From the NCBI RefSeq assembly GCF_019649055.1, contig NW_026570241.1:496001-560000 (forward strand): a DNA stretch of 64,000 nt, given 5' to 3'. Made by a program: the position numbers and the translations under genes. This stretch comes from Paramacrobiotus metropolitanus (taxonomy: Eukaryota > Tardigrada > Eutardigrada > Parachela > Macrobiotidae). Shown piece after piece: positions 4,501-47,699 of the stretch. Position 1 is the stretch's first letter, and every line of letters begins with the position of its first letter. Under the pieces are notes generated by a model. It made no database searches and was not told where the DNA came from. It worked only from the letters and a program-made list of their open reading frames with translations.

Positions 4501-7432
4501 CTAAACACAGCAAATCAAGCTCGCACAAGCACTGGGCTCGGCCGGAAGTGGTCGGTCAATCTTCTCTTCACAAAGAACGCAGATGAGTGTCTGCTCATTG
4601 CCAGCCTGAAGTACTTTCTGGCACTTCTTGCAGAACAGCGCATGACACTCTTGCTTGGAACATTCCAAGATGTTGGTTTTACCGCGAATATCTTTGCCAC
4701 ACCCCGCACAATTAAACTTCATTAGATCCGAGATCTTCTTCGATAAAGCCGAGGCAAAGATCCACCCATTTTCCGTATCATACCGTGCCAGCTTGGAACG
4801 CTCCACCGCTTTCTGGCGAAACTTCAGGAAATCTTTAATCTTCTTGGGTTTCTTCTTGTACAGTTTTTTGCACAAATGTTCATTACGCTCTTCGCTCCGC
4901 TCCGGATATAAATACGTCAACATGAGTTGTCGCATTCTCAGACAGTAGCCATCCAGAACTAGCAACAACATCACCGAGAGCAAAATGATTACCGGTACCA
5001 GATAGTCATGACCTTTCAGTTGGTGTAGTACCGGTGCGCATTTATCCATCTCAATACTAATGTTGTACTTATCGTTCGAGGGAAATCCTTCGAATAACTT
5101 GGGAAATAATTTATCCGCCATTAAGCCTTTGCCGCTGGGCTTCAGATCAAAGCCGTCCTGTGTGGTTATTGAGCCACCGGCTGAGGATGAATACTGCATT
5201 AAACTGATCAACCATTCCAGCGTTAAATTACACCCAAACAAGATTATGGTCAGAATGGCGTAAATCCCCGGAATCACCATTCCTGATTTGATGGCGGCGC
5301 GTTCCAGGAGCGATAAACTGAGTGAGGTGATATCCACTAAACCGCATAACTGTTTTCTGGTAAGTTTGACCTTTTTTGTTTCATCCTCGCCTTCCATTTC
5401 TTGGCGTAGTTCCGCGTACATGGATTTAACGCGTTGTGTTACGTACACATTATCGAACTTATTGGATGTTAAATACTTTCCAATGTATCGCCAACATGTG
5501 AAATACAGCAGGAGAAAAGCAAACGCCGTTATGTATTTAATCACACCGGTCGCTGTCTGGAAATCCTTTAAGCCTTTCACCATAATGTTCAACTGCCGGG
5601 TGATATTTTTCAGCCGTTCAAAATCGGTATTCAGATTGTTTAGATTTTTCCGCACACTTTTAATTCCAACGTCCTGGAATACTTCTTCCCGTATATTCTT
5701 CAACTTCCTCTCGGTGTATTGTTGGATAAAGGTCAAATTGGACAGAGAAGAAGTGAGCTGGTGTTCGATCTCCAGTCTATCACGTTCTTTACCGCTTCGA
5801 GAAGAACCGATGCGCGACGGGTCCAGGGCGTTTCCGAACATGCTGACACTTTTCCGGACCGTGTTTATGATGCCGATACGCGATAGGATAGACTGGACGT
5901 TTTTTAATCCGTGAATACTATTAGATATGGCGCCAATATGCGCATTGATGCTCTGTAGTTCTTCGCGGTATTTTTTGGCTTCCATGTTCCACTGATTGCC
6001 GGTGGCATTGACCTTTTCCAGGATACGCTCATATGGTTTGGTAGCGCGTTGAAACACCTGCGAACAAAATACATAAATCAGGTTTTTAGCGGAGCCGGTC
6101 AATTACTGTGCTGGAAAAATTAAAAAAGCAAAACAAACAAACAATAGATGGATCGTTACTAAATCATTTTTTAGACAAACCTTTTTCACTAAAATCAAAT
6201 AAACTTTGAATTACGATTACAGTTTTACCAAGCATAAAATCTCATGTACAAATTAATTGCTACTCAGTACTCTACTGGTAGAGCACAGCAGAAAAAAGCA
6301 GATTTAACAAATTTCGGCAGATTTAACAACATTTCGTAAAGCAAGGGCTGCGTTTCTGTGTATCGCTTCTGTCTCGCGGCACAAAAAGAAATTCAGACCA
6401 ATAATTCATAATTATTTTTATTGGGAAGTGCTTTTTTATTTCATAAAATAAAGATACATCACAGACCAATAATACAGAAACGAGTACAAATATGATTACT
6501 GCTGTAGCACAATTTTTCTTTCTAAATGATTGTTTTATGGCTGAAATTTATTAGGGATGTCCATCATCTGCATTTACACTGTAAACTCAATGCAGCCTTT
6601 AGTACTCTTTACCAGATCGTGACAGCCAGATAATTGAAGCAAGCGAGTAAATTATTTAAGTTAACCAATTTTGCAAACGGGTAAATTAATTATTGTTAAT
6701 CCTTTTAATTAATTATTGGTAAAATTAATTTTATAATAAATAATCCGCTCTACCGCAAAATAAATTATAATCTTTTCATTTATCAGACTCACGCTGACGA
6801 AAATTTTTTACTTCTATGATACTTTTGTTTAATAAAATACTAAATCTGTCTGCACACATACATATATTAACGAGTAAATAATATATTTGTACCTTGTCAG
6901 TTTCGTTGGTCAACAAATGTCCAGCGCACACCGTCGAATTAATAATACTGTTAGAATTCCGACTCATATTATTAATCGGCCCAGCCAGCAGCGTACTCAT
7001 CACCACAGCCAGCAATGCTGAGCGTCCATGTCGCATTCCAAGATGCGGAACAACCAAGATACATGTAATCCGAAAGCGTGGACTGACGATGGAGAGACAA
7101 ATTAAAATTCCCGATAGAGTGGAGGTCACAATAACCGCAGATAAGCGGCTGCTGTAGAAATATAGCCAGGTAAATGTTCCACATAAGGTCACGACGAAGC
7201 TGACCGCCCAAGCGATGGTAAATAATCCCGGCTTTTTGTGAATGCGGTCATGTTGAGACGATTTTGGGTTGAGCTTCTCCAAAATAGTCTCGCTTCGCTT
7301 TAGCATTTTGATGGGAATATAGTTGACCTTTTTTACCGCATAATGATGGAGATCGGAAGCATGTATAAATCGCGGTAAAAGAAAAAAATAAACATAGAAG
7401 AGATACAGTGCAACTGACCGATTATGAGCCAT
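4501..7432 (-). CDS. DC-STAMP-domain membrane protein (DCST1/2, sneaky type)
   Basis: Family members are multi-pass proteins of immune fusion cells and sperm; DCST1/2 and fly sneaky act in fertilisation. Two exons, 7432-6893 (180 codons, phase 0, donor GTACAA) and 6057-4501, give about 698 aa, close to human DCST1. Exon 1 has three or four hydrophobic segments and the N-terminal DCST signature GRSALLAVVMSTLLAGPI. Exon 2 has a long helical extracellular region, a transmembrane helix near residue 355 followed by CWRYIGKYL, two more helices (IPGIYAILTIILFGCNLT and YLVPVIILLSVMLLLVL), then a basic cytoplasmic tail. The last 60 residues form a Cys-rich zinc module (CAGC, CSKQEC, CKKC, CVLC) like the C-terminal RING-type module of DCST1. 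The start was chosen because the ATG at 7432 precedes the first hydrophobic segment. The only intron, about 835 bp (6058-6892), is AT-rich and otherwise empty. The reading frame is intact. Confidence 0.88.
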
Positions 7433-27321: not shown

Positions 27322-29117
27322 ATGGATCTGAAAACAGAGCGGCTTTCAACGGGAATTTTGCGCTTGCATGTTAACGTTACTTTCTGGTTGAGTGCTATGC
27401 ACTTTTGTGGTTATTTCACGTCACCACCAAGAAAGTATGGACCAATATTCCAGGCTGCTCTTATTATATCCATTGGATTGCAATTTTCGTTTAACATCAT
27501 CAATTTTGATGTATTAGTGGCGGGAATTCCAATTACTAAAATATACAAATTTATTCTGACTGCGATCCCTTTTTATCTCGTTCCCTTTATAAGGGCTTTG
27601 GGTCCCGTTATCCTAATGTACAATAAATGCGATCTGGGCAGTTTGATGAAAAAATTCGTGGCGGATTTTGCAGTGTACTTTGCTCCATGCCATGTTGCAC
27701 TGATTATCCTCACTGGCTGCATGTTAGGTATTCCCCTGGCCTGCTTCACCGCAGTGAATTTTAGAGCAATTCCTGCTATGGCTCAAAACGAAAGTTCGGA
27801 ATTATTTCTGTTTTACCACGGCTTGGGCTCAGTAAGTCCACAACCACAGCGGTGTGCCTTACCGGATTTACTTTGTCAGGAATCTGCTATACCGGAATGA
27901 AATGTGCACAGGTGTTCATAGTGTTGTGGCCACTTAATTTCGGTTTCGCATGTCGATCTCTCATTATTCTCGCGAAAAAGCACCACCCATCGAAATGTCT
28001 TGTACAGCTTCTTCAGGATCACGCAGGTCTGCTTCGACTTTCGCAGCAATTAAACGAATGCTTCTCGTGGATCGCCGTCGTGGTTTTCTTGGAAGATGTA
28101 TTTTACTTCGTCATTGCGGCGCAAGACCTTGCGAATACGGCTGTTACCGGCGCCATGTGTGACCTTTTGACAGTTTCCATCATGATTTTGCATGCATCCA
28201 TCATGAGCGCACAATTGTGGACGTTTGTATTTTTGTTTGAGAAGGTACGTTTGTCGATACAAGAACACGACTGTGCTTGTTATAAAATCAACCACTTTGG
28301 TACGAGAGAGTTATTATTTTGTATATATACAAGTGCGATAGATTACACACAGTTTACACAGTTTGGTCAAGTTCAAAACAACTATGGTTTGTCACAGGTC
28401 GCGCGGCTTAACATCCATTCGAAGCTGATTATCTGAAGCCCAAATATGTATTACGCTCCCATGTAGGTTCACAAGCCGCTTTCTGTTTTACGTTTTATTG
28501 CAGAACAATGCATTTTTCAAGTTTTTACGGAACATTATCACTGAGCAAGATAAAGAAAACAACGTCTCCATTCTAATTACCAGACATGTTAACCGATGTA
28601 AAGGCATGCAGACGGGCGTCGCTTTGGGAGGAATCACCTTGACCCGAGAAAGGGTTGCCGGAGTAAGAAGCTTCCCTGCTTTAGTTACGGTTTTAGCAAA
28701 ATCGTCAATGTAACGGTACTAGTTTGATTGTACTCCATAAAGAGAAGTTACCAAAAACGCTAAAGAATTTATGTACAATTTGTATGAATTTATGTATGTC
28801 CAGGCACATAGCTCCGAACAAAACGCATACGCATCGAAAACTGTCTTCGTTTTAGGATATCTTGTAATGACGAAATATACTTGTATCGAGGATATAAATA
28901 TTACTAATTATGAACATTGTCCGCATACAAAAGAAATTCTAATCCAGTGTGCGGATGTCAACAGATATTCTGCAGCATATTTGGATATATCCTACTGGCG
29001 GCGCAGATTAGCGATACGGATGGCGACGACATACCCAGAAATACTCCTTCCGAACTTACTAGTAACCGCATGGTGATGTTATTCATATGCAACCGTAGCA
29101 GTTCCAGAACGCAATAG
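27322..29117 (+). pseudogene. Gustatory-receptor-like gene 1, frameshifted
   Basis: First member of a tandem array of seven-helix receptors. Exons 27322-28244, 28504-28662 and 28965-29117 have the same phase-0 junctions as the intact copies at 39.8 and 42.6 kb. Exon 1 encodes six hydrophobic segments and the family blocks FACRSL, NECFSWI and FLFEK. Exon 3 carries the TM7 block IFGYILLAAQI. Exon 1 is one nucleotide short: the frame beginning MDLKTERLSTG reaches FYHGLG near 27825, after which the homologous sequence (SKSTTTAVCLTGF) continues in another frame. No splice choice I tried restores the frame; the GTAAGT at 27832 does not match in phase. A recent pseudogene or a single-base assembly error are both possible. 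Confidence 0.7.
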
Positions 29118-29130
29118 ACGGTTGGTGCAC

Positions 29131-29170
29131 TGCGTTGCACTGCGTTGCACTGCGTTGCACTGCGTTGCAC
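29131..29170. repeat. 10-bp tandem repeat TGCGTTGCAC x4
   Basis: Four exact copies of TGCGTTGCAC begin 13 bp after the stop codon of receptor gene 1. The unit contains the palindrome GTGCAC at its junctions. Confidence 0.9.
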
Positions 29171-30609
29171 TTTTATTAGTTTTTATGATATACCCACGAA
29201 GTGAAGGTGGCGTCTAGAGCACACGTTCGCTATTACGAATTCGGCAACCACTATTTTCAGTGTTCGACGTTTTCCAACAACGCATCACCTGCGCTAGACA
29301 TTTTTAATAGTTGATTAATAGTTTTAATAGTTGATTAACATATGCCAATATCCTGAAATTATAACAATTTCAAACGTGTTGATCGACGCTGGATAAGTAT
29401 AAAGAATTTAACTGCACTCCAATATTAACTTTTGCGCATCAATATTGAATAACAAATTCGGATCTCGCGCTCCGTTACAAGATGAGCTGATGTTCGCACT
29501 CATCGCAATTTCAATACGAGTATAACGTGTCTTTTGCAACTGGCACAGGTTTTTCAGTACCTAGATAGATTTTGTTTTATGCGTGAGATTTAATTGGCAC
29601 ACTTATTGTAAAACTGAAATGCAGAGTGAGAATCATGTACAACAGTAAATGTTAGAAAATTGTATACCTTCAGGAAAAACGGGAATACATGGTACGTAAT
29701 ACGGGTGGTCAATTCTTCCAGATTCATAAAAATGTGCGTATACAATGAAAGTCCTTTCCCAAAGCTGACTTTAATAATTACTGTAGTAGATTCTAATAAG
29801 TGGATAACCACCTTCTGGTTGAAGGATTGACAGTAAGCATAGTATTACCAGGGAGCGCACAGCACGGTTAAGTTAATGCAAATAGTAGAATACTGGAAAT
29901 TTTTCGCGGGGAGTCTTGCGTTGATCTTCGATTTGTTCGATTAGCCATCATCATTAGCCTGCATCAGAACAGCATCTGAATTCTCAACAACCGAACAATT
30001 TTTTGCAGATTTTGCATTGCCAAAGTATTTCGTTCTACCAAGTGCTTAAGTTAAATGTACGTACTAAACGCAACCGCTCAGACAAATTAAGAATGCTGCA
30101 ACACATTAATTTAGATTATTACAAAACACCAAATTGTTTTCAATATGATTTACGCTCTTTGCGTACAACATGCTTGGAACATAAGTAATAGTTATAAACT
30201 AAGAAACGGAAGGCTTCGTCAAATTTTTGACATTCCTGCTTGCGAAACCCAGCTGTGCCAGCATCTTTGGCAGCTACGCGTACGCTATGATTGTCGGGTA
30301 CATATTTGACATGTACGAGTATTTCCTGACAGCGCTCTGAACAAATGAACAAGTATCGCAATACGGATGGTTGGTGTATTCAAATATTGGAGCGATCCAC
30401 AACATGAACCTGGGTCCTGAGGTAGCACCATGTGGCAGAGCATTTACAAATGTAGCAAATTATTACGTTTATCAGGCACAGATACTGGAAGATGTACTGC
30501 TACAGAAGAGACAGAGGTCACGCCACGAAAAAGGTTTTTTGTTAAGCAGCATAAGCTCTCGTTTAAATTTGTTTTGTCGGTTCTGCTGTAAATCAGCGGG
30601 AATTAATAC
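29171..30609. other. Spacer between receptor genes 1 and 2
   Basis: AT-rich and without a supportable gene. It should hold the promoter of receptor gene 2. Confidence 0.5.
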
Positions 30610-32375
30610 ATGGATTCGAAAACAAAGGGCATGCATACGCGAATTCTGCGACTGCATATTGCAGTCTGGTTAAATGCTATGCAAATTTGTGGATACTTCA
30701 CATCACCTCCAACGAAGTATCGGACAGTATTCCAAGTTTCTCTGGGCATTTACATTATATTGCAGTTTTCGTCTGACGTTGTAGGTTTCGATATTATGCT
30801 TGCTGGAATGTCAGTTGCTAAATTGTCCGAATTTTTCCTGACTATGATCTCCTTTTATCTTGTTCCCTTGGTAAGAGCATTTGGTCCCACTCTACTACTA
30901 TTGTCGAAAAGACTTGATCTTGGCAGTCTAATGAAAAATTTCGTGGCGGATTTTGCAGTGTACTTTGCTCCATGCAGTGTCGCGCTGATTGTCTTGACTG
31001 GATGTTTGCTTTGCATTCCCCTGGCCTACTCCACCGCAATTAATTTCAACGGGACTCTTGCTGATGCTCAAAATGAAACCTCGGAATTATTTCTGTTTTA
31101 TCACAACTTATGACTCAGTAAATCCATCTCAATAGCGGTATGCCTTACCACATTGACATTTGCAGGTATCTGCTACGCAGGAACGAAATGTGCGCAGGCC
31201 TTTGTAATACTTTGGCCACTTACTTTCGGTTTTGCATGTCGATCTCTCAGTATGTTTGCAAATAAAGGCAGCACATCGGAAAATCTCATACAGCTTCTTC
31301 AGAGCCACACAAATCTCATGCAACTCCTGCAGCAATTAAACGAATGCTTTTCGTGGATTGCAGCCGTGGTTCTCCTGGAGGATGCGGTCTACTTCGTTAG
31401 TGCAATATAACGACTTGCTGAAACTGCCGCTACCGGCTTTACTAATGACCTTTATACAATTTCCATCATGACAATGCATGGGTCTCTAATGAGCCTACAA
31501 TGGTGGGCGTCGGTATTTTTGTTTGACAAGGTACGACTCTTACTATAATTCTGGGGCTCTCGCATAAAGTTAGTTGCTGAGATTCTTAAGCACTTGTAAG
31601 TTGTAAGTAATTTACAGTAGTACGTGTCTTAACTGTACAACCGGTAAGCACCCGGTATGAAATCCAAAAATCGCTTAGCAGTCACGGCATCTTATGGTTA
31701 TCAGCGCATCAGCTTTCTGTTTTCAAACAGCTTTACTATTCTTCACGTTGCAGAATAAAGAATTTCTTCAGTTTTTACGGAACGTTACCATTAATCAAGA
31801 CAAGAAAAACCACGCCTCCAATTCAATAATCAGACATTTTAAGCGATGCAAAGACATGCAAACCGGCGTTGCTTTGGGAGGAATCACCCTAACCCGGGAA
31901 ACCGTTACTGCAGTAAGAACCGATCATGATATACCGTAGTTGCGCTTTTCAGCAGTCGGCATTTTATCAAAAGTTGCTAAATTGTTATCGTTATTCGTAA
32001 TAAGTACTGCTTGCAAGCCTTGTATAATATATTGCAAATCACCCGAGAGTACTGTAAACGCATCACTTTACAAGCATGAAAAGAGCATTTTTGTTATCGC
32101 TTAAGAATAATGGATAAATCTGCACAGCGGTCGCATGTTCTTGAATGTAGTAGTGTTCAATTTTGTGCAGAGAAGCAAGCACTCGACGTAGAAAAAAAGC
32201 GTTATTCTGTTAACAGATTTGTTGCGGCATATTTGGATACATCCTGCTGACTGCGCAGTTGAGTGATAAAGATGGCGTGAGCAGTTCCAGAAGTGCTCAC
32301 CCCGAAATTAACCGTATGGTCCTATCATCTATGTGCAACCATAGCAGTAACACTGTACAAATAGATTGCTTGTGA
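30610..32375 (+). pseudogene. Gustatory-receptor-like gene 2, two nonsense codons
   Basis: Closest relative of gene 1 (VADFAVYFAPC and the FACRSL and NECFSWI blocks are shared). Exons 30610-31530, 31754-31912 and 32217-32375 keep the family's phase-0 junctions, and exons 2 and 3 are open, ending in FGYILLTAQLSDKDG. Exon 1 has no indel but contains TGA at 31111-31113 and TAA at 31408-31410. The second replaces the CAA codon present in gene 1. All splice sites remain intact, so inactivation looks recent. Confidence 0.78.
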
Positions 32376-33329
32376 CTTTGGTTGGCGTAGTTTAATTACA
32401 TTTTGATTTGACTGTTATTATTTGAATTGTGGATTATGGAAAGATGTTTCTTGATGACTACCGCTCATTCAGCACAAGCTAGTATTCGTAATAAGGAGTA
32501 TCGCGTAATGAAATAGACATCATTACAAAATGCTGAGTTAAATAAAATAGTTATTAACTGCCCAGTATTCCTTCAGTACATGCACAATACGTTGTACCCG
32601 CGCGAGTCGCGAGTCGCGACTATGTTTTGCCACATGAGGGTGCTTTCCGGAAAAAGCCACTGCACACACACGCATGGGCTGCCCTCGATGTTCGTTTCAA
32701 CATCAGCAACGTCCAGCAGGAAACAAACAGGTAATTACAAATTTGCCGCTGAACAAGACATCCCAATACGCTATACTTCCTACGGATATTTCCTGCGCTG
32801 TAGTGATGTACTGCAGACTTAGTACTACGTTCAGAACGTATTGAATGTTTACGCAATAATTACGTAAATTGTTAACTTGATAAACGAAAAAAACGATAGA
32901 ATGTCGTGTCCGGAAAAGCCGGTGATGTTGGTCACGCAAACATACATTACAACGTTTTTATAACTGAACTGGCCATGTTTCAGAGAAACGCAATTTTGCA
33001 GCGCTCGAGAGAAGATGTTCAAAGTTCGAACGACAACGACCAGCAGCTACGCAGACAACAAGCAGTTATAACAAACATGCAATTCTGCTACAAACCAACC
33101 CGCTGATCGTATTAAGCAAACAGCTACGATTCTGGGTGCGCTGAATCAACACACCGATCCACCGTTATTATTACCCAATCTCCCCCGGGAAAACCGCGCA
33201 GGTGCAACCTCGTTTATTTTACTGCCTCGAGATTTCATCTCAGATTATCTTCGACTGCAAGTTGTACCTGTATCAATTTAATTGCTGGAAACCCAATTGG
33301 ATGTTTCAGTTTTTCTTCTAGATTATAAA
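32376..33329. other. Spacer upstream of the GPCR, no gene seen
   Basis: No supportable reading frame. A TTCTTCTAG just before the GPCR start (33313-33321) could be a 3' splice site for a 5' UTR intron. Confidence 0.4.
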
Positions 33330-34235
33330 ATGAACACCACAAACGTCACCGATGCAACGGCGATTTCCCAAAGCCAGTTATACTTCGACTGGACAGACTG
33401 GATATCCATGTCGTTTACCTTACTTTCATTTTCTCTTAACGCCATCGTCGCCGCGTTGTTTACCATTTATCGGCGTCTACGCACCCCTTTCACCGTTTAC
33501 TTTCTTGCTCTGACCTTTGGCAACGCCGTGTACTGCTTTCCCGTGTGGGCGGACATTCTGTGCTTCCACTGGGCCGATTTCTGCAAAGACCGCGTACTGT
33601 GCGCTGTGCATGTCTACGATGGATGGGTGATTAGCGCGGTGGCCCTCCACATCCACGTCCTCATTAGCGTCAACCGGGTGTGGGCGCTGTATTTCCCTAT
33701 TTCTTATCGCCGCCATCATACCGTGAAAACCGCCTGCTGGATCATCTTGACGGTGATTGTGTACGTGCATTTAATGTGCCTACCTGGTGTAATTCTCGAC
33801 GCTGTCTATAATAACATGCCTTCGAAGTTGTGCCGACTGGATCGATCCATGTTGCGGGCTTGGGTGAAGGTGGTCATGATTGTTGTTTATGATTTACCGG
33901 TGCTGTTGATGATTGGATGCTACGTATCCATCCTAATTGGTCAACACAAACGCCTTCGGATTGTACACTCACTGGGAAGCAGTTTCCCGGGTCGGCACAG
34001 TGGGTTTGCCGTGTTAACGACGCTGACCACTAGCGTGGTATTTTGCTGGACACCGTATAATCTTCTGGATACCCTGGACGCGTATTTTACTGTGTCGATG
34101 CCGGATGAGGTCCGCAACGCGACTTTTGTGTTGTATGTCCTGCAAAGTATGATGGATCCTCTGTTAATTGTTGCCAGTGTGTCTGACTTGCGCAGTACCG
34201 TCTTTAATTTGCTTCGCTGTAAAACGATACGGTGA
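33330..34235 (+). CDS. Rhodopsin-type (class A) GPCR, single exon
   Basis: Seven hydrophobic segments in 301 aa. The extracellular N-terminus has N-glycosylation sites (NTTNVTDAT). TM2 reads LALTFGNAVYCFP, with Asn in place of the usual Asp. The conserved TM3 Cys is in VLCAVHVYDG and the E/DRY position reads NRVWALYFP. TM6 has FCWTPYNLLD (CWxP) and TM7 has MMDPLLIVAS in place of NPxxY. The start at 33330 was chosen because the residues upstream contain no ATG in frame. The gene is intronless and sits inside the chemoreceptor array. The ligand cannot be inferred; the class is clear but no subfamily is recognised. Confidence 0.85.
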   Translation: MNTTNVTDATAISQSQLYFDWTDWISMSFTLLSFSLNAIVAALFTIYRRLRTPFTVYFLALTFGNAVYCFPVWADILCFHWADFCKDRVLCAVHVYDGWVISAVALHIHVLISVNRVWALYFPISYRRHHTVKTACWIILTVIVYVHLMCLPGVILDAVYNNMPSKLCRLDRSMLRAWVKVVMIVVYDLPVLLMIGCYVSILIGQHKRLRIVHSLGSSFPGRHSGFAVLTTLTTSVVFCWTPYNLLDTLDAYFTVSMPDEVRNATFVLYVLQSMMDPLLIVASVSDLRSTVFNLLRCKTIR

Positions 34236-36600
34236 TCAAAATAAGAATTAACAAAAAATCCTTGGAAATTTTGGTTTTTATCAAAATCTACACTCAGAAG
34301 TCATGGATCACATCAGTTGACATCGGAAATTGTCTAAATGTTAACGAGCATATATAATTATATTGTATGTCGCCTTTACCTTCGAAACGTGCTGCCTCGA
34401 TTAACGGGTAGGCAAATCGACGAAAATATTTAAGATTATCAAAAATTTGTATCCGTATTACGTATTGTGCTATAGGTACTTCGAGGTCGCGCACAATTAA
34501 AGCCATTCGATAAAAAGTCATCCATGTATTTCATGTTTATAGGAGCATGTTTATATGTTTCAGTAAAAGCACAATAATCAAGCAACAATCGAAATCCATG
34601 CACAGCTAAAGTGGCGATATCCCGACAGATCGAAGTTGGCGTAATTATTGAATATGCTGACAACTGTTCTTATGAAGCATATCTTCCTATACCAAAAGCA
34701 ATGGTATTAGTCAAAGAGAAAAAGCTGCATCTGAGTTGTCGCTGTTTTATGTGTTTTCAAATAATAACAGTACAAGGACTATTTCTCTTTTAAATATCAG
34801 CTGTTTTGATAGCCATTGACGCTCTCCTCTCGGCAAACATGTCTTCTCAAACTACGTGACAGTTGGCAGTTATGTATCTCACATTGGTATAGTGACAGCC
34901 CCATTGTATGCGAATCTGGTCGTATCTACGATAAGCTATCGAAAAGCGATTTAGATGTTTAAGTTAATACCATAAATTCGTTGCACTTTTAAGTTTAGTA
35001 TACGAGGTAAAGCTTGTGAAGCTCGGTCTTTTATAATGACATAACAAACAGACGCGCCAAGAAATTATGCCACCACCAGCCGGAAAGATTACGGCAAGAG
35101 TGCTGTGACTGCATGCAAACTGCAAAGCTAGCATCAGGCTACTTGTATCTATACAATCAGTCTACTGGCTTTGCTGGATTAGCCCTCCAGCGGGCGGTAC
35201 CCGAAGGAGCGAGAGTATCCTATTGAAAATTGGGATTTCCGATGAAAAAATTCATTTAAGAAAGGGAATTTTTTGTGAGCTTGTGCTGACCATAGGTCAG
35301 CGGTGGTGACTATGTCGCCTCCTGACACCAATGCCCATGGACGGTCTACAGCATAAAAACGTTTAATTCTGTAATAACCAGGCGAACAGTAATTAGGTAA
35401 AAGCAACAACTAAAACCTCATTAAATAGTACAAAAAGTACTTCAAAACAGAAGTAAAGAAGTGGTCAACGAACTTACCACTGGTCAGCAAAAAAAATGAA
35501 AACGTCCAAAACCCGTTTTCATGTGTTTTGACCACTACTACAGATAGAATACTGAAAATAGACGATGCTAACGATGTTCTTCCCACACCTTTCTTTATAT
35601 TCTCATATGAGACTCCAGGAAGGATTATTTTTGAATTTTAAGTTTGCATTTCTGTCGTTCTTATACTGGCCCATTGTCCGCGCTTACACTTTTCCCGGGT
35701 GTAACCGCAGATGCCAGTGTAATAAAGGCGGCGCGGAAAGTCCAGCTGCAGTGGTCGTTAGCGCCAAATCAGATATTAGTGGTCACTAACACTTTTTAGA
35801 GCGCGTTAGCGTTCGGAAGTAACTAGTAATGCTGCCGCTAAGGTGAACATCATCAATGTGCCCGCTTGCAATTACGTGATGCAGTTTGCAACCGCCCGAA
35901 ACTGATCTAAATTCAGAACCATGTTTCTTCAAAGCTGCGCAGCGCTCTCCCTTACCTTGCCCAAGCGATGCATCGATGCGTACAAACGCGGCAAAGCACA
36001 CGGTGTTGTGCCGCCATTTCACAGTGTTATTGCAACGGCGGTAGAATTACTGGACAGTCAGGGCGGTTTCCCTAAATTTTCTGTTTTCCGGAAGCCGACC
36101 GCCCGGGTTGTTGATTAGCGACAGCGTTTTTCGCCAGCTTTCGATAAACGGAACCGCGTGGTACATGTTTTGCATCCGAACCGACAGTAACTTATTCCGT
36201 TTCCGCAATAAAAAGAATCTGTCGAAAGTGCACCCGCCCGTGTATTCGAAACCCTTCATGTGCAATGGCGTTTAGCAAGCTTGAAGCAACACGTGTTTTT
36301 GACGGACAATGGCCTTGTAATCTGTGACTTTCAGATACCATGATGAACATTACTGAATAAAGCAATATCAATTGTACCTTGCTGATTAATTTCAAATTTG
36401 TCGAATTATCTACTCGAAAGTTATGGACTAAGGCATCGGAGAGCTCAGACAAGTCGAAATAAGTCGATTTTTGCGCACCCGTAGTTTTTAGATAACTTGA
36501 GACACAAGATTGAATAATGTTTTTAATACCGCATTAAAGTCCCTTATTGCTTATTACGATGTGGGATAACGAATAACTGTTGGCGATCGCTGGGGAAAAG
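34236..36600. other. Intergenic stretch, no gene seen
   Basis: AT-rich. A CGCCTCCTGAC word near 35310 recalls the hairpin at 36613, so degraded copies of the same element may be present. Reading frames at 35565-35789 and 36192-36452 look random. Confidence 0.4.
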
Positions 36601-36612
36601 ATCCCAAACACC

Positions 36613-36880
36613 TTGTCGCCTCCTGAACGCCAATGCGTTCAGGAGGCGACAATGCGTCAACGGGTTAAGGGGCAAAACTAAGCGTCTTCCAGCGTTCCCC
36701 TGTACTGCTGCCGTCACCCGCCTGGAAGTGACGTTACGGCAGTACATACGGTTAAATCTGGCACGGTACATAAGCACCATGTTCAGCTACACTACAACGT
36801 CAAACTCCAGTCGGGTGACAGCAGCAGTACAGGGGAACGGTAGAAGATGCCTGGTTTTTCCCCTAATGTCAATTTGTCGT
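36613..36880. mobile_element. Foldback element remnant with nested inverted repeats
   Basis: A perfect 18-bp hairpin (36613-36630 with 36635-36652, loop CAAT) is followed by larger inverted arms: 36692-36720 (CGTTCCCCTGTACTGCTGCC...) complements 36813-36842 with about one mismatch. More weakly, 36655-36691 complements 36843-36880. Confidence 0.6.
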
Positions 36881-36949
36881 TGGTCGGCGGAGTTTGTCGC
36901 AAAAGTTGAGACTGCAGCTATTTTGCAACGGTGTTTACAGTCAGTGGGG

Positions 36950-37012
36950 TGACGCTTCGGGTGACTGCTACGTGGGAACAAAATTCTCCCAGTCGTTCCT
37001 GGTGGTTGGTCG
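36950..37012 (+). pseudogene. Relic fragment of a gustatory-receptor-like gene
   Basis: The plus-strand frame around 36968-37008 reads CYVGTKFSQSFLVV, nearly identical to CYAGEKFSQSFLVV in the TM5 region of receptor gene 3. The flanking sequence does not continue the homology, so this is a short decayed piece between arms of mobile elements. Confidence 0.5.
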
Positions 37013-37453
37013 AAGATGCTTGGTCTAGTGTATAAACACCGGCGTAAACAAAGAACTACTACTTCCAGTAGTCAGTACTAGTACTGCTTCCTTGAATCGA
37101 TGTCTATAATACCGATCATGCAAATCTTGTTTCTTGTGTACCGTACAACCGTTAAACGAATGCTTCTGTTGAATGGAACTGGAAGCGATATTTGTCCCTA
37201 AAGACACCGTTCTGTTCATTTCCATTGTGCATGACCTAAATGCCATCGCCGGCACGACAAAAGAAGGTATGTAGAATGTTTGTCTAGGTGGTGCTCATGG
37301 GGATTATTGTTAGCGCGCAACTCTGCTCGACCCTGCTTATGGTGATACGTTCATTACTTTGATACTAGTACTTGTTTGTACTAACGAGCCAAAAGGACTT
37401 AGTTTCTCCCGAACTTGTATTAGGACCTTGATGGGTACGTACTACTCAAAACT

Positions 37454-38703
37454 GACCAGGGACCGGTCACCGCCTCTCCCTCATAAAAATTTTATATTTT
37501 GTTTGAAGACAGAACATGTATGGGAACAGCTAAAAAAATACTTTTGTCGGCAATGGCCCAGTGGGCGTTGCCAAAAACACATTTGAGTGCGGTATGTATT
37601 GTCAATGTACATTGTATATACAGTATTGGCAATGCATACGGCACCATGATCAGTGTTACTTATTCACTGCATTTGCAGACTAGCTTCTTGACTACTAATT
37701 CTTAATTTTGGTTTTTACAACATCCAATTTTTAAAAATCTAACCGGTAGTCGATTTGACTTGATTGCACTGCTTACCTTTAAATTCTTCTTTATGCTGCA
37801 TGCACCACACGCGCGATGCTGGCAAGTACAAAGAGTTCACAAAACTTTTACATCGTCAAGCCAGTCAGTAAAAAGTAAAATTTACCGAAAAAAAAATCAA
37901 AACAGAAGTTTTCACCAGTACGATGCATGAACACCGTTTAATGAGAATACGTAATACGTGCATTGGCCATATACAACGTACGACAAAAAGAGGTTGAACC
38001 GATCAGTCGGTCCGCGGTTCAAAATAACATCGCAACGACACGCCACCACTAAAACTTGGACGCTTACTCACTACTTTCAGACGCTTGCGCTCCGTGAATA
38101 TCAAAGTGCCGCTATACTAGTTGCACATCAAAAGGTGTAGAAAAAAATTTTGAACTTTTTGATTTTAAATCTGTGGCTGTTTATGGCGAACAGCACAAAT
38201 TCTAGCCATTTTGCTTTCCCATAGACTTAAGCATTGATTGCAAGCCAAACGGTTATGCGCACAGATCCTATGCTGTGTCTACGAGAAAGCAAAATGGCTG
38301 GAATTTGTGCTGTTCGCCATAAACAGCCACAGGTTTAGTGTCAAAAAGTTTAAAATTTTTTTCTACACCTTTTGATATGCAACTAGTATAGCTGCACTTT
38401 GATATTCACGGAGCGCGAGCGTCTGAAAGTAGTGAGTAAGCGTCCAAGTTTTAGTGGTGGCGTGTCGTTGCGAGGTTATTTTGAACCGCGGACCGACTGA
38501 TCGGTTCAACCTCTTTTTGTCGTACATTGTATAAGTGCCGTATGTATTGCCAGTGCACTAACAATACATACGGCAGTTATATTTGTTTTGCCACTGGACC
38601 ATTGCCGATGAAAATATTTTTTTAAGGGTTCCCAATACCGACTCTGTCTTCAAGCAAGATATGAAATTTTTCTGAGGGGAGAGGCGGTGACCGGGCCCTG
38701 GTG
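37454..38703. mobile_element. Outer foldback element with ~80-bp inverted ends
   Basis: The left end (ACCAGGGACCGGTCACCGCC, from about 37456) returns inverted at the right end (GGCGGTGACCGGGCCCTGGT, to about 38702). Homology runs inward through CTTGAAGACAGA and the GGCAATGG/CCATTGCC blocks on both sides. The palindrome at 37970-38533 is nested inside. No coding capacity is seen. Confidence 0.65.
37970..38533. mobile_element. 564-bp palindromic element, two 249-bp arms
   Basis: Arms 37970-38218 and 38285-38533 are about 95% complementary around a 66-bp centre. Landmarks on both sides are ACGACAAAAAGAGGTTGAAC, GGTTCAAAATAAC, CACGCCACCACTAAAACTTG and TGTGGCTGTTTATGGCGAAC. No transposase. A single arm recurs at 47700-47944. 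Confidence 0.85.
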
Positions 38704-38754
38704 AGTAAGATTTTGGAATGTATCAATACTTTTGTAACGCTTTGTTTATTGTTA

Positions 38755-39268
38755 CAGTGAAACTCCTCTTAACATTCACCTTCCTATAACATTCACCCCT
38801 TTACTGCATACACGAGGCTGGGAACCAAACCGTCCGGTAGACTATAACACAGGGGCAGTTCTCTGTATAACATTCACCCCTTTACAGCTATAACATACAT
38901 CTTTTATGGAACCGGTGACAGTTTTACCAGCTTATTCAACCCCTGCGTAATATACGGTTGGTTTGGCTGGTGAAAAAAAAACATTTCGGTGCCGCTAAAA
39001 GAAAGTTCCGGCTTCTGTTTTTAATCTGTTCAGTACCGGATCTTCCAACTCCAAGCATATAAAAGCGCAGCACAACCAACATTCAGACCGAATAATGTCC
39101 ACACTCCGGTATTTTGTTAATTTTTTGGGTAATTAACACCCCCTGGGGCTACGACCCTGAGCCCTTGAAGGCAGTGCCCCTGGGGCAGTGTTCCTGTATA
39201 ACATACACCTCTCTGTAACATTCAGAAAGCCTGGAACGGAGGGTGTATGTTATAGAGAAGTTTCACTG
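38755..39268. mobile_element. pogo/Tigger-like MITE
   Basis: The left terminus CAGTGAAACTCCTCTTAAC (38755) and right terminus GTTATAGAGAAGTTTCACTG (to 39268) are inverted repeats with the CAGTGAAAC end typical of pogo/Tigger elements. A TA dinucleotide flanks each end (38753-38754 and 39269-39270), as for Tc1/mariner-class insertions. The interior repeats TATAACATTCACC several times. Length is 514 bp, with no transposase. Confidence 0.7.
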
Positions 39269-39766
39269 TATTGGAAAGTCCCATAGAAGAAAGAACAAGA
39301 CTATAACACAAAAATAAAGCCCATGAGCTGATAGATTCGAACTTTACACTGAACCAGCTGAATATTCTGATAGATTCGATCCAGCTGTTCTCATGAAAAT
39401 GGCTTCGTAAATAAAAACAACAGGGGTTGCTAACAAAGAAAAACTTGTAAGAAACTGTTGTTTTATTTGAGCCAAATGACAGCTGTGTTAATTGTTCTAT
39501 GCAGAGTATTAGCTTTGCTGACAGCTACTGACACTCCCAGCTCTCGAACGTGTTTTAGCTTTGCAAATTTAGTAGCAGTCGATACGTGATACTCTGCTTT
39601 GCTGAATGCCTTGCCTACACTGACCTGGTAAGGTATCGTAAAGCGATTTGGTTGCATCTTTTCCGATATTGTTTCGGCTCTGCATTTTTAAACTCAATAT
39701 TGCATCAGGTAAAGCTTAGGTAGAAAGGTCCTAAAACTTACTCCTTCGTAGCGACATAAAAGCCGA

Positions 39767-41506
39767 ATGCAACAAGAAAACATGCAGCCTTCAGCACGAA
39801 AGCTGCAGACCAGAGTCTTGCGGCTGTATGTCGCATTCTGGTTGATCGCCATGCAGATGTGTGGCTACTATACCTCTTCTCCGCGGAAATATCGTCAACT
39901 ACTGCACGGAGTTTTCTACATTTATGTAACCGCACAGTTTGTTTTAAATTCCTTTGGCAGCTTTACCCTGCGTCCAGTGAACACATCGAAAATATCGAAG
40001 TTTTTGTTGAGTGAAATTCCTTTAGCTTTGGTGCCCTTTGCCAGGGCATTTGCAGCGTTCACGCTGCTGCATAAAAGAAGGGATCTCAAAAGTCTCCTGA
40101 CAAATTTTATCGGCGCCTTCGATGTCTACTTCACACGAACTGATATTGCGTTCGTTGTGTTCTCAGGCTGCTGCCTATGTGTTGTTCCATTATTTTACAT
40201 TGGATTCGGCGTGAACGCAATCTTCATTGTCGCCAATTTGAACGGAACTTCAGAGATATATCATAATAAGTTTGGGCTGCAAAACGATATTGCGACAGTG
40301 CTCGCAGTTAGTGTTGTGGCGCTCCAGGCTGTTTGTTACGCGGGAGAGAAATTTTCCCAGTCGTTTTTGGTTGTCTGGCCACTGGTGCTGGGCGTAGCGT
40401 GTCGCTCTATGAACACCTGTGTAAAACAGCGAACCACTATGGCAGCTGTGCATCGGTATCTTAACGACCACGCAAGTCTGGTTTCGTGTGTGCACGAACT
40501 AAACCACTGCTTTTCATGGACGGGGGCCATATTCGCTTTGGAAGACATGTTTCACTTCGTTATAATTGTGCATGATCTTGCTGCGGGTGCCGTTGCCGGC
40601 ACAACGTACGATCAAGGCATCATGGTTTTCCAGGTGCTGCTCATGGGAATCATGGTGAACGCGCAATTGTGCTTGGCTGTGTTCTTATTCGAGAAGGTAT
40701 ATGATACGTCTTAACTAAGATTGGAGTTTCTTTACATCATAGTCGTGTTTTCGTTAACCCTAAAATTAATTATCAGTTCAAGGCGAAACATAATTCATTT
40801 GTGTACGTACAAATTGTGTCAAACAGATTGCATAACGTGTTACTTATACGCAAAATACGAGTATTAGTCCTTTCTTCTTGTGCTTCGTAAGCCCATATTT
40901 GTTTTTGATTGCTAACAGTTTGACATTTTACGATTTACGTTTTTTTACGGAGCATTTCTTGCAGAACGAAGAATTTATGCAGTCATTACGCACCATTGTA
41001 ATTAACGAAGACTTGCCAAATAAAATCTGCAGCAACGTAAACGTTCACGTTAAGCGTTATAGCGCAACGCAAACTGGAGTGATGTTTGGAGGTATCATCA
41101 TTACTCGGAATAGCTTCATCGGAGTAAGTATCGAAAATGTGATCAGAAGTGATAATCATTACTGGATGACCTGCCTACAGCGTATATCAAGAACCAAACA
41201 TACAACTAAACACCAAAATTTTCTCATAAGTATTTCTTATAAAATTTCTCGTAAATCATACATATTGATATATATTGTACATAGTATCATACAGCAGTAT
41301 TACAGTGCGGTCTCTAACTCTACCATTCACTTTAACAGATTGCCTGTACCGTTTTTGGGTACATCTTGCTCACTGCACAAATGCACGATAAAGATGGCGA
41401 GCTATCTCGGACGATTGTTGCTCCTGAACTCATCCGTACGATGCTATCGTCTCTGTGCAACCGCAGTATCTGTAGCAATGTCATGTCTAATCCGAGCGTG
41501 GTTTAG
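39767..41506 (+). CDS. Gustatory-receptor-like seven-helix protein (gene 3)
   Basis: Three exons, 39767-40696, 40965-41123 and 41339-41506, join at two phase-0 introns to give 418 aa, the usual size of insect gustatory receptors. Hydrophobic segments include LYVAFWLIAMQMCGYY, FVVFSGCCLCVVPLFYIGF, AVSVVALQAVCYA, FLVVWPLVLGVACRS and VLLMGIMVNAQLCLAVFLFEK. The 53-codon exon 2 is hydrophilic and ends in GVMFGGIIITR. Exon 3 encodes FGYILLTAQM, which fits the insect TM7 signature TYhhhhhQF as G-Y-five residues-Q-M. Phase-0 introns near the 3' end with the last exon carrying TM7 are also typical of insect Gr genes. Gr proteins are ligand-gated cation channels with an intracellular N-terminus; that role here is inferred. 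The frame is intact. Confidence 0.75.
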
Positions 41507-42624
41507 ATTTCCTTTAACCGACGTATTTGTTCCTGATCAGTTTTGGGTGGGTGTTGTGCGTCACTGTACATACACCAATTAAAATAAGAACCTCATCTGT
41601 ATACTTATGGTTAGTGTAACCTTTGCAATTGCCGGCATACGTGTGCCGGGGTGCGAAGCGATACATAGCAAGTACGGAACCTTGTATGCACAAGTTGTTC
41701 GCAACATTGGATGGGTGTGTCCTGGGTAAATCAGTTGATTGTTAAGAGGATTGTGCTCTGCAACGCTGATTGTCTTCTCATAAACTATAAAGTGCTTCTA
41801 AACGTTACCCTTATATTAATTCATTTCCATCAATACGATTTTCTCCTCCCGTCTGACATATCTGTAATTTCATTTCCAAGAAAATAAGATTGACGCATTA
41901 GTGCTAAAGTTTCGCTACGAGCACGGATGCCTGCCGAACTTACTCGCGCCCATCTTTGCGCTGTCCCGCCTAATCGAATTTGTTCTCCCGTCTCCCTGCG
42001 TTTTATGCGCATAAAAGTTCTGAAGGTGTACGAGTATAGACGAGTACGAGTATAGACTGTAGTTCCCAAAACACAGGGACGCACGAAACTGAAACAACTT
42101 TTTAAATGTTAATGCAGATTGAAACTGGTTAACGTCACAATTAAATAAGATATCAAATCTAGAAGACACGGAAATGTTACAGTGTAGTTTTCGACGCTCC
42201 CGTTTTCGGCTTCTCTTTTTATTTACTATTTCACTTTGACAAGCAGCTGAATTCACCTTTAGCTTTAAATGATTGGCATTGATCAGGATATGCATACGGC
42301 TTAACGGGACTCGGTTGGTGCATGTTGCTGAATTTGTTTATGACTGTTATACTCACTGGTCAGCTGTTCACAAATGCACATACATACGTAGCTTACACAC
42401 GTTATTTTGCAACTTCACTCTGTGTCTAAATTTATGTACAAGTACAGTAATCTGCAGTCTCATCTAATGCTGCAGTCGACTGTCCGAATTTAACCGCTGG
42501 TTTTTTCTGTTCATCACTTGTACAAAAAACAAGCCCAGCATTCCACCGGACTAAAGAAATAACTGTTGTGCATTTCGCAGTGCCACCAGTGTTTTATATT
42601 GTTTTCTCGCTTTTACAAGTAGAC
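41507..42624. other. Spacer between receptor genes 3 and 4
   Basis: No gene supported. A GTACGAGTATAGAC-type word is tandemly repeated at about 42027-42056. Confidence 0.5.
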
Positions 42625-44113
42625 ATGGAAGGGAAAATGGGCGGCAGTAAAACCTGGTTTGTGCAGCTACAGAATACCTTTTGGCTGACAGTTATGCAGC
42701 TATGTGGATACTGCGGCTTTTCACCACAAACCCACCGCAAGGTGTTTTGCATCCTAAACGGTATTTATGTCATGGCACAGTTATTGTCTGGTATTTTTGC
42801 TTCGAACGTCCCTGCTTTGCTACATCCCGTTGAGGGTGTTTCCAAAGTGTCAAGGATTCTTTTAACAGTTGCTCCCGAATTTTTGTTGCCTTTTGCAAGA
42901 GGTTTTAGCGCTGTTACCCTCTTACTAAAAAATAAAGATTTAGATGGGTTGATGAAGGGTTTTATACATCGGTTCGACCAATACATAACGCGAAGCAGCG
43001 CTGCTCTGATAGCCGTTTTTGGATGCTCTCTTTCCATCAGTCCCGCGTTTTACGCAGCAACAGGCGTTGACTTTGTGACGGCTTCGTGTGGCAACAAATC
43101 ATCGATACTTTTTCAGTATTGCCGGAATGTTGCGATTGACGAACCAGTTGCCGGGGTGGTTATCGGAGCCACGACATCGCTTCTCGTGATTAGTTATACA
43201 GGAATGAAGAGTGTGCAATGTTTTTTGGTGGTTTGGACGCTGATGTTCGGTCTGGTATGCCGTTCATTAAACGGTTCAGTGACTAGAAAAAATACCGCTG
43301 TCAACCTTCTCTCACATCTAAAGGCTCACGCTGACCTTGTGAACCTTATCCAACAAATGAACGATTGCTTCTCTTGGATTACAGCAATTGTATTCGTAGA
43401 GGATGCCTTCTATCTGATTAGCGTTATACAAAGCGTCCTCGAAGCGGCTGTTACGGGGACCTTGTTGAACAAGTTTGAATTTGGGCATTTGGCAATTAGC
43501 GCGCTGATGATGAGCGCTCAGTTGGGATCGTCAGTGTATCTGTTCGAGAAGGTAAACGTTTACTCACTTAACTAAAGGTAAATTAAAGGTAACTTAGGTA
43601 ATTAAAGGTAAATTTTTACCCACTTCATATACTTACTGGTTAGTGAAGATAATGCAAAGGACAGTCGGAGACACTGAACTGCATGTTTTTTGTAGAATAC
43701 AGAAATTATGCAATCATTGCGCAAAATGGTCATCAATGGAGAGGTCCCAGATGACATCGTCGCAAGTCAAATAACCAACCACTTAAAGCGCTATAAAGGA
43801 GCCCAAATCGGTTGCGTACTTGGCGGAGTGACGTTAAATCGAGACGGCGTTGTGGGAGTAAGTACATACGAGTAACTATGGAACGCCGAGAAGAGGCGTG
43901 TTGGGATGTACTCGTAAAATACCGCCTTTGTAGATTGCTTGCACAATGTTCGGGTATCTCCTCTTGGCGGCGCAAATAAACGACAAAGACAACATGGCCA
44001 ACAGCGACAATGTTATTTCCCAAAACTTAACGCACGTGGCAGTAGCCATTTTGTGCAACACCACATCTGGGAATGAACCCATCGGTGATACTTTTAAGAT
44101 TTTCATGGACTAA
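42625..44113 (+). CDS. Gustatory-receptor-like seven-helix protein (gene 4)
   Basis: Exons 42625-43551, 43696-43857 and 43934-44113 give 422 aa with the same phase-0 junctions as gene 3. Exon 2 is one codon longer. Shared blocks are FWLTVMQLCGY, VCRSLN, NDCFSWI, SVYLFEK, the GxxxGG stretch of exon 2 (GCVLGGVTLNRDG) and the TM7 block CTMFGYLLLAAQI. It is the most divergent of the four. The ATG at 42625 was chosen because it aligns with the other starts; the frame is open further upstream but without an ATG. AATAAA at 44162 lies 49 bp after the stop. The frame is intact. Confidence 0.75.
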
Positions 44114-46010: not shown

Positions 46011-46479
46011 CGCTTTGGCGGGCGAGAGTGCGAGACGATTGTCTGCGTATTCGCTACCGCTCCTGTCCGCCGCCGAGGTTCTAGTTGACAAACAAGCGGG
46101 AAGATGTATGTAAGCGCGTTGTGAAAAGAAATCCCAAAAATACCGTGCTTGCCTAGAACAGCTAGAAGCAGTTTGCTAGTTAGAGCGATGTACCTATTAC
46201 AAATAATTTACAGACGCAGTTACAGACGCAAACTATAAAACTGTCTAGAAGTCCTCCATGGCTATTTATTGTATATTATAATCAAGATTATTCTGCACTT
46301 GCGTACCGGTATCTCAGTATCTGTAAGCTAGTCCACCGAGCAGAAATCAATCAGGCTCAAAGAAAGCGTGGGCGAATGAAAAACTAATCGACTGCACGTC
46401 CTGCTTTAGGCAGCCTCAACATGCTCCATCCCAGAAAGTACTTTTCAATTGTCACCGTCTCGTCCACTGTAGGATCAAC
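46011..46479. other. Spacer, no gene seen
   Basis: 3' flank of the 407-aa gene and lead-in to the ADP-ribosylhydrolase pseudogene. Confidence 0.4.
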
Positions 46480-47699
46480 AATACTGACGAAGGAATGTCA
46501 GAACCGAATGCTGTCCAAGTACGTGGTTGTCTTCTAGGGGCCTTGGTTGGAGATTGCCTGGGACGGTTGTTTGAGGGCGATCCACCGCCGGTGAAAGTAT
46601 CGGAGATCGTAGCAACAATTGCCGAACAAAATAATAAACCGTAAAAGCACACATCATAAATATGTATTCTGCCGGATGTCACATTTTGCAGCGATACACG
46701 GCAAAAACAGCTGAAAAGTTCATGGTTATGTGTAGATATAAGAGAAACTGAGTACCGGTAATGTGCAAATATATTCGGACTTTCGTTTACTTTAATTGCT
46801 AGGGTACTTTCACTTTAATCACTTTCACGTTAATTATATACTTTTCTTTCGTATTGGGAGAGTGTTTTAGAATTGCCATTGCCGTACACGGATGATACGG
46901 CCATCATCGGGCCATGTGTCACACGCTGGCCGAATCGTTGATTCGTTGCGGACGTTTCGACGCTCGCGATCTGGCCAAATCGTAAGCGTATTTTTTCCTT
47001 TCGCCGCTTCAACGTTGGGATTTATGTCGCGTTTCGGCAGTTTCAATGACAGGTATGAAGCACAGTGGACCAAGAAGCGCCTGTACGCGAGCAGCGTAAA
47101 GCACATCTTTTCCATCTGGGAGGACAATGACTTTGGAGGCGATATTTTTGAACCTGCGCGACAGCAGTTTAATGGTCGGGGATCGTTCGGGAACGGTGGG
47201 GAATGCGGGTCGCCAGTATCCCACTATTTTGTGGGAACCGTCTGGAAGAGACGTTAGAGGTTCGCATTCTGATTACTGTACTGGAAGGCAATGTGATGCA
47301 ATTCTTAAATTCATGGATGCAGCGATATACGGTACACAGTATCATCATATTGAATCATACAAACTTGTTTGCCTTTGAACACTGCGTTTTATGGATGACT
47401 GCATTACTCTGCCGACATTTAGCGTAGTGAGTCAAATACTGTTTCAGGAAAAACCATATACCGGTATTTCTAATCAACGCATGCGACGTGAATGTTTTAT
47501 AGTGTTTGACCTTTAGTGTCAGTAGTTTTTGGCTATTTCAGATTGCCCGCCTGAGCAAGCAGTTGACTCACAACCATCCACTTGGCTACAACCGAGCCAT
47601 TCTACAGGCGTTGGCTGTTCACCTGGCCCTGCATTCCGACACTCCAGATGGTGAATCTTTGTTGGATGCTCTCATCAAATTTGCTAGTGACCGTTTAGA
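46480..47699 (+). pseudogene. ADP-ribosylhydrolase-3-like (ARH3/ADPRS) pseudogene
   Basis: ARH3 removes Ser-linked ADP-ribose and degrades poly-ADP-ribose; its metal site uses the GDxxG and YTDDTA motifs. Exon remnants: 46480-46640 (GCLLGALVGDCLGRLF), 46871-46981 (LPYTDDTA then CHTLAESLIRCGRFDA), 47041-about 47265 (DIFEPARQQFNGRGSFGNGG then MRVASI) and 47542-47699 (LSKQLTHNHPLGYNRAILQA, then LAVHLAL). Breaks: about 1 nt lost near 46523, an 11-nt insertion near 46904-46914 that repeats GGCCAT, and 1 nt lost near 47200. After 47699 the homology stops at the arm of a palindromic element. Splice sites between remnants are still visible, including a 59-bp intron (46982-47040). The catalytic C-terminal part is not found. 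Confidence 0.85.

Follow-up and report, generated by a model that had tools for sequence, protein, structure and literature searches.

The 64,000-nucleotide stretch of contig NW_026570241.1 of the tardigrade Paramacrobiotus metropolitanus (the whole stretch is called the window here) carries a tandem array of four related genes, named A to D, together with a fifth, partial copy. This array is very probably a family of tandemly arranged genes distantly homologous to the insect gustatory (Gr) and odorant (Or) receptors (GRL, 7TMIC superfamily), whose products would form channels. We favor this reading because of three lines of evidence, namely a fold search with a model of protein C that lacked the seventh transmembrane segment (TM7), sequence blocks collinear with those of the insect receptor Gr43a, and the predicted topology. 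The preliminary description of this DNA had taken the genes for insect-Gr-like chemoreceptors. The fold search, the blocks, and the topology agree with it, whereas the score for the Pfam family 7tm_7 stayed under the cut-off and the model of protein D matched weakly.

Gene structure and the TM7 block

The window was spliced at GT..AG sites to build the gene models of the paralogues. Genes C and D consist of three exons each, with both introns in phase 0 and with intact reading frames, and the protein lengths of 418 and 422 aa given for them earlier were obtained again. Splicing and alignment also reproduced the two phase-0 introns and the TM7-bearing last exon described as common to A, B, C, and D. 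The intron on the TM7 side is located just before the TM7 helix, after position +5 from a conserved Arg, in all four copies. In a part of PMC9998090, insect Gr genes and certain Grl genes are described as having a phase-0 intron directly ahead of the TM7 exon; by this published description, all four copies share the feature. The amino acid identity to C is 36–40% for D, B, and both pieces of A. With C, D, and both pieces of A as tblastn queries, no copy besides A–D and the partial one was found in the window at E 0.1. Tandem duplication gave rise to the copies, three of which have since decayed. The tandem array of four paralogues thus stands as far as the relatedness and the common introns are concerned, but three of the five copies, including the fifth one, look damaged.

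The TM7 strings are FGYILLAAQI in A, FGYILLTAQL in B, FGYILLTAQM in C, and FGYLLLAAQI in D. The motif common to all four copies is therefore GY(I/L)LL(T/A)AQ(M/I/L), which departs from the canonical insect motif TYhhhhhQF in the way noticed previously, with Gly for Thr and a hydrophobic residue for Phe in every copy. In B and C, a Thr occupies one of the five positions between the Tyr and the Gln. The relaxed motif of the GRLs, (T/S)Yhhhhh(Q/K/E)(F/L/M), is termed diagnostic but not definitive in the part of PMC7746228 used here. Compared with it, the Tyr and the Gln are present in 4/4 copies, an allowed last residue in 2/4, and an allowed first residue in 0/4 (Gly). According to passages of PMC11100771, the BmGr9 pore has a hydrophilic ring formed by the Thr and is plugged by the Phe; the Tyr is in contact with lipid, and the Gln swings inward to the pore when the channel opens. 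The plug position is occupied by Met, Ile, or Leu in the array and by Leu in Orco.

Counted from the conserved Arg, the Gly at −6, the Tyr at +13, and the Gln at +19 have the same spacing in all four copies, in Gr43a, and in BmGr9, whereas Orco keeps the Tyr and the Gln but not the upstream Arg and Gly. The motif is followed by a tail of 35, 37, 40, and 44 residues in A, B, C, and D, respectively, compared with five residues in Gr43a and one in Orco.

Sequence blocks collinear with Gr43a

A profile of the four paralogues was compared with Gr43a in a dot plot for which no block had been preselected. The two best separate segments of 27 residues fell in TM7 (C357/Gr43a 401, diagonal −44) and in S5 (C233/Gr43a 276, diagonal −43). 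Of 300 shuffles, 0, 1, and 0 attained the score of the best collinear pair of segments at the lengths of 20, 27, and 34 residues. For two unrelated membrane proteins encoded in the window, the corresponding counts were 110, 249, and 236 of 300 (a G protein-coupled receptor, GPCR) and 52, 139, and 18 of 300 (a DC-STAMP protein).

The ungapped TM7 block scored 21.0 at the TM7 site and 3.3 at the next best site, and the S5 block scored 21.25 and 1.25, respectively; no shuffle reached either value (0/300 in each case, hydropathy classes being kept for TM7), the blocks having been chosen after the motif and the dot plot were known. In the comparison with Orco, the TM7 and S5 registers were within the top five segments at one length or other, together with a match in S1. 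The best match of the hhalign comparison with Gr43a and BmGr9 was also located in S5 (E 0.084). As judged from the TM7 block, the resemblance of TM7 to that of the Grs is more than chance.

Fold models of exon 1

For the structure prediction, exon 1 alone (S0–S6) was submitted to AlphaFold, the TM7 exon being excluded, with a thin alignment of seven exon-1 pieces from the four paralogues. The model of C consists of ten helices; the helix in the position of S4 spans 48 residues, and that in the position of S5 spans 53. The best 50 of its 230 Foldseek matches in the PDB were considered. Ranks 1–4 were DmGr43a, two entries of the I418A mutant, and Gr43a of D. mojavensis, all with a probability of 1.00 (TMq 0.48–0.50, E 3.3e-3 to 2.3e-2). 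The other matches to the family were a chain of the aphid OR5–Orco complex (probability 0.92), AgamOR28 (0.87), and BmGr9 (0.85), and the remaining 43 entries among these 50 had probabilities of at most 0.21. On exon 1, the fold search thus favors a Gr-like fold for C, whose low-confidence model matches Gr43a best, and does so weakly for D.

Predicted topology

The helix layout of the array proteins resembles S0–S7b. There are nine hydrophobic peaks in C and eight in D, which correspond to seven transmembrane segments when S0 of C is left out of the count and the long S4 is taken as a single segment. Members of the superfamily are described in a part of PMC7746228 as proteins of about 350–500 aa with seven transmembrane segments and an intracellular N terminus, and the predictions for C and D agree with this in all three respects. 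Lys and Arg residues are more numerous in the predicted inner loops than in the outer ones (20 vs. 8 in C and 19 vs. 7 in D).

The glycosylation sequon Asn-x-Ser/Thr is present in all four copies at only two columns of the alignment, 166 in the S3–S4 loop and 416 in the tail, the latter being preceded by Cys in every copy. As the S3–S4 loop and the tail are outside the cell in the topology of the Grs and inside in that of GPCRs, the aligned sequons mark an orientation with the N terminus in and the C terminus out. Sequence marks of this topology are thus present in the array proteins. Seven more sequons are not common to all copies, and three of these lie on the predicted outer side (C 72, D 394, and B 147).

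The same sequons bear on the possibility that the genes encode GPCR-like seven-helix chemoreceptors, unrelated to Gr/Or and signaling through G proteins, with a TM7 resemblance due to chance. GPCR chemoreceptors are common in animals, and a rhodopsin-type GPCR gene does sit within the array, as a single-exon open frame between B and the partial copy (33321–34232, + strand; 7tm_1, E 4.2e-19). However, the sequons aligned in all four copies would be cytosolic in a GPCR, the block comparison with the GPCR of the window stayed at background, and only two GPCR entries, with a probability of 0.08, were among the best 50 of the 230 matches of the C model. Moreover, the Pfam scans of array queries that were listed to E 10, some of them by family, contained no GPCR family. 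We therefore regard this explanation as extremely unlikely.

Profile searches and the weighing of the evidence

The array was scanned against Pfam 14 times, two of the scans being repeats of C and D. The queries were full-length C and D, five rows of the alignment, the halves of C and D, the family consensus and its half, the 3' piece of A, and the middle piece of B; a scan of D exon 1 was listed to E 0.01 only. The gathering cut-off of 7tm_7 (PF08395) is 26.6 bits. For the C-terminal half of C, 7tm_7 was the sole listed family; Gr43a, scanned alongside as a yardstick and excluded from the count, scored 144.1 bits. The match of this half of C had E 0.0093 and 15.7 bits, which is weaker than it looks, since it is the best of 14 scans. 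The profile search proposed at the outset therefore ended below the gathering score. For the C-terminal half of the consensus, 7tm_7 was also the best family (E 0.041, residues 10–209 on profile positions 146–360 of 370), and one of the five alignment rows matched it at E 0.32. Full-length D had only three matches, to unrelated families, at E 0.07–0.1.

A number of results weigh against the assignment to the Gr/Or superfamily. None of the array queries had a Pfam match above the cut-off, full-length C had no match at all at E 10, and 7tm_7 was unlisted for the full consensus, the C-terminal half of D, and the 3' piece of A. The search of the PDB by sequence found no Gr or Or. Of 150 class-preserving shuffles, 39 attained the hhalign score for Gr43a with BmGr9 and 95 that for Orco. 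The first Thr of the TM7 motif is replaced by Gly in 4/4 copies, and four of the unaligned sequons are at sites predicted to be on the inner side or in the membrane (D 216, B 317, and one in each piece of A).

The collinear pair test was devised after the dot plot was known, and for Orco its value was reached by 27, 12, and 93 of 300 shuffles at the lengths of 20, 27, and 34. When only the single best segments of 27 and 34 residues were taken, the value was reached by 23 and 5 of 200 shuffles for Gr43a, 10 and 45 for the partial BmGr9, and 94 and 72 for Orco, the unrelated targets giving 186 and 175 (the GPCR of the window) and 93 and 18 (DC-STAMP). As sequence evidence, the single best segments are weak by themselves, and the collinear pair is stronger.

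The exon-1 models also count here as poor ones, with a mean pLDDT of 44.7 for C and 46.3 for D and a pTM of 0.35 for both. The top Foldseek match of the D model was AgamOR28, with a probability of 0.75 but a TMq of only 0.28. The ABC transporter MsbA followed at rank 10 (0.47), Gr43a at rank 18 (0.54), and BmGr9 at rank 39 (0.21). Taken together, the two predictions appear to represent a single fold, modeled fairly in the case of C and poorly in that of D.

Some of these results also concern the question of whether the array consists of canonical insect-type Gr genes, of an insect or another arthropod. That Gr43a is the protein which the C model matches best in structure speaks for this. The 7tm_7 score below the cut-off where Gr43a obtains 144.1 bits, the Gly in place of the motif Thr, and the 35–44 residues after the motif where Gr43a and Orco have five and one speak against it, making this origin very unlikely. 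Tested against the Pfam cut-off and the canonical motif, the array falls short of both, which makes the name 'insect Gr' unsuited, on the sequence, to these genes.

Lesions and divergence of the copies

The features of the array are collected in Table 1. The lesions in A and B and the decay of the fifth copy indicate that two genes of the array are intact, two are damaged, and one copy is a relic. The reading frame of A changes within exon 1, where A has, by eye, one base fewer than B. Exon 1 of B contains an in-frame TGA at 31111–31113 and an in-frame TAA at 31408–31410. An 18-base GT..AG stretch at the lesion site of A and B was weighed by eye as an intron and rejected, since it is too short and its removal from A does not restore the reading of the family.

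Over exon 1, A and B are 60–62% identical (tblastn pieces). Their nonsynonymous (dN) and synonymous (dS) divergence was 0.246 and 0.654, respectively, over 359 codons in four pieces. The ratio near 0.4 suggests that A and B were under constraint for much of the time since their split. Between C and D, the silent sites are saturated.

Table 1. Positions of the array copies and of their presumed pore exons in the window.
Feature	Position	Strand	Exons or content	Basis
Paralogue A, probable pseudogene or assembly error	27322–29117	+	Exon 1 27322–28244 (frameshift ~27825–27837); exon 2 28504–28662; exon 3 (TM7) 28965–29117	Splicing/translation, alignment, tblastn
Paralogue B, pseudogene	30610–32375	+	Exon 1 30610–31530 (two in-frame stops); exon 2 31754–31912; exon 3 32217–32375	Splicing/translation, tblastn, dN/dS
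Fifth copy, relic	36966–37326	+	Partial (S4–S6), interrupted by stops and frame changes	tblastn with C, E 1.1e-9
Gene C, intact, 418 aa	39767–41506	+	Exons 39767–40696, 40965–41123, 41339–41506	Splicing, alignment, exon-1 model, block tests
Last exon of C	41339–41506	+	Presumed pore helix S7b (GYILLTAQM), then 40-residue tail with sequon CNRS	
Gene D, intact, 422 aa	42625–44113	+	Exons 42625–43551, 43696–43857, 43934–44113	Splicing, alignment, exon-1 model (weak)
Last exon of D	43934–44113	+	Presumed pore helix S7b (GYLLLAAQI), then 44-residue tail with sequon CNTT	

Other features of the window

A perfect tandem repeat of TGCACTGCGT (4.6 copies, 29126–29171) is found a few bases past the stop codon of A. 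Approximately 100 bases before the relic copy, at 36608–36864, there are inverted repeats that may be an element of the miniature inverted-repeat transposable element (MITE) type. One has arms of 59 nt (36668–36726 and 36806–36864) that are 86% complementary and 79 nt apart; the second, alongside it, has arms of 23 nt (36608–36657, 91%).

Farther from the array, the long open frame at 4501–6102 (− strand) contains the DC-STAMP domain (E 9.6e-22), and its cysteine-rich C-terminal part is RING-like by eye. A tandem repeat with a unit of 105 bases (1.9 copies, 97% matches) is located at 2375–2571, and the start of an ADP-ribosylglycohydrolase-like gene at 46474–46644 (+ strand) was matched below the cut-off (E 0.0024). 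A mitochondrial carrier and matches to immunoglobulin (Ig) domains were also seen; along with the rhodopsin-type GPCR, the DC-STAMP protein, and the spliceosomal introns, they indicate animal DNA. Rfam had no match at the gathering score in the window.

Proposed function

By analogy with their homologues, the array proteins are most likely tetrameric ligand-gated cation channels. Four subunits would assemble into a cation channel with S7b lining the pore, and the Gln of the motif together with the hydrophobic residue after it would gate this pore. A ligand bound among S1–S6 might then open the channel through the contact between S5 and S7b.

The usual role of Gr/Or-type channels is chemosensory, and by the same analogy the array genes are probably chemosensory as well. 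A variant compatible with the assignment to the Gr/Or superfamily is a GRL channel that has this fold but plays a non-sensory role, for example, a developmental or housekeeping one. GRLs outside arthropods are not all sensory, and a cnidarian GRL homologue studied by Saina et al. in 2015 reportedly acts in body patterning, as the title of that work has it. Tandem duplication and divergence accompanied by pseudogenes are the usual pattern of chemoreceptor families; their presence in the array argues against a non-sensory role but is no proof, and we consider such a role rather unlikely.

It is possible, if somewhat short of probable, that the distant Gr/Or homologues of the array belong to a non-insect GRL clade with an altered pore. 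In such a clade, Gly would replace the Thr of the hydroxyl ring, a glycosylated outer tail of 35–44 residues would lie at the gate, possibly capping or tuning it, and the ancient 3' introns would have been kept. The natural Thr-to-Gly variant and the long outer tail offer testable changes at the positions that gate insect channels. The array also illustrates that divergent 7TMIC members can escape profile searches, as they did with Pfam here, and its kept 3' introns and recognizable S5 and TM7 blocks help to anchor superfamily alignments. It is a useful, not a startling, addition to a widespread family.

Comparison with known systems

In the titles and abstract openings of the papers listed on tardigrade gustation and chemosensation, no report of such genes was found. 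The main text of the tardigrade genome paper PMC5531438 contains no word starting with gustatory, chemorecept, chemosens, 7tm, or odorant, and the passages seen of PMC7738191, PMC6938034, and PMC7510291 held nothing further on such genes.

Among the known systems, the array proteins resemble insect Grs of the Gr43a/BmGr9 type in their length, in the layout of the helices with its long S4 and S5, in the S5 block, and in the G-x5-R-x12-Y-x5-Q spacing that leads into TM7. The phase-0 intron directly before the TM7 exon is likewise a feature of insect Grs, by its description in the part of PMC9998090 used. In contrast to Gr43a and BmGr9, their motif starts with Gly instead of Thr and ends with Met, Ile, or Leu instead of Phe, the tail is long and bears a sequon, and the Pfam score is below the threshold.

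The likeness to insect Or and Orco proteins consists of the matches of the C model to AgamOR28 and to the aphid OR5–Orco chain, the S5 and TM7 registers among the top segments of Orco, and the hydrophobic last residue of the motif (Leu in Orco). Unlike the array proteins, Orco has no Gly and Arg upstream of TM7, and its sequence similarity to the array is not clearly above that of shuffles.

The non-insect GRLs of cnidarians, placozoans, echinoderms, and hemichordates were compared by the published motif alone, as given in passages of PMC7746228. The array shares with them the Tyr and the Gln in 4/4 copies and an allowed last residue in B and C, and it differs from them in the first residue, Gly in 4/4 copies, and in the last residue of A and D, which is Ile.

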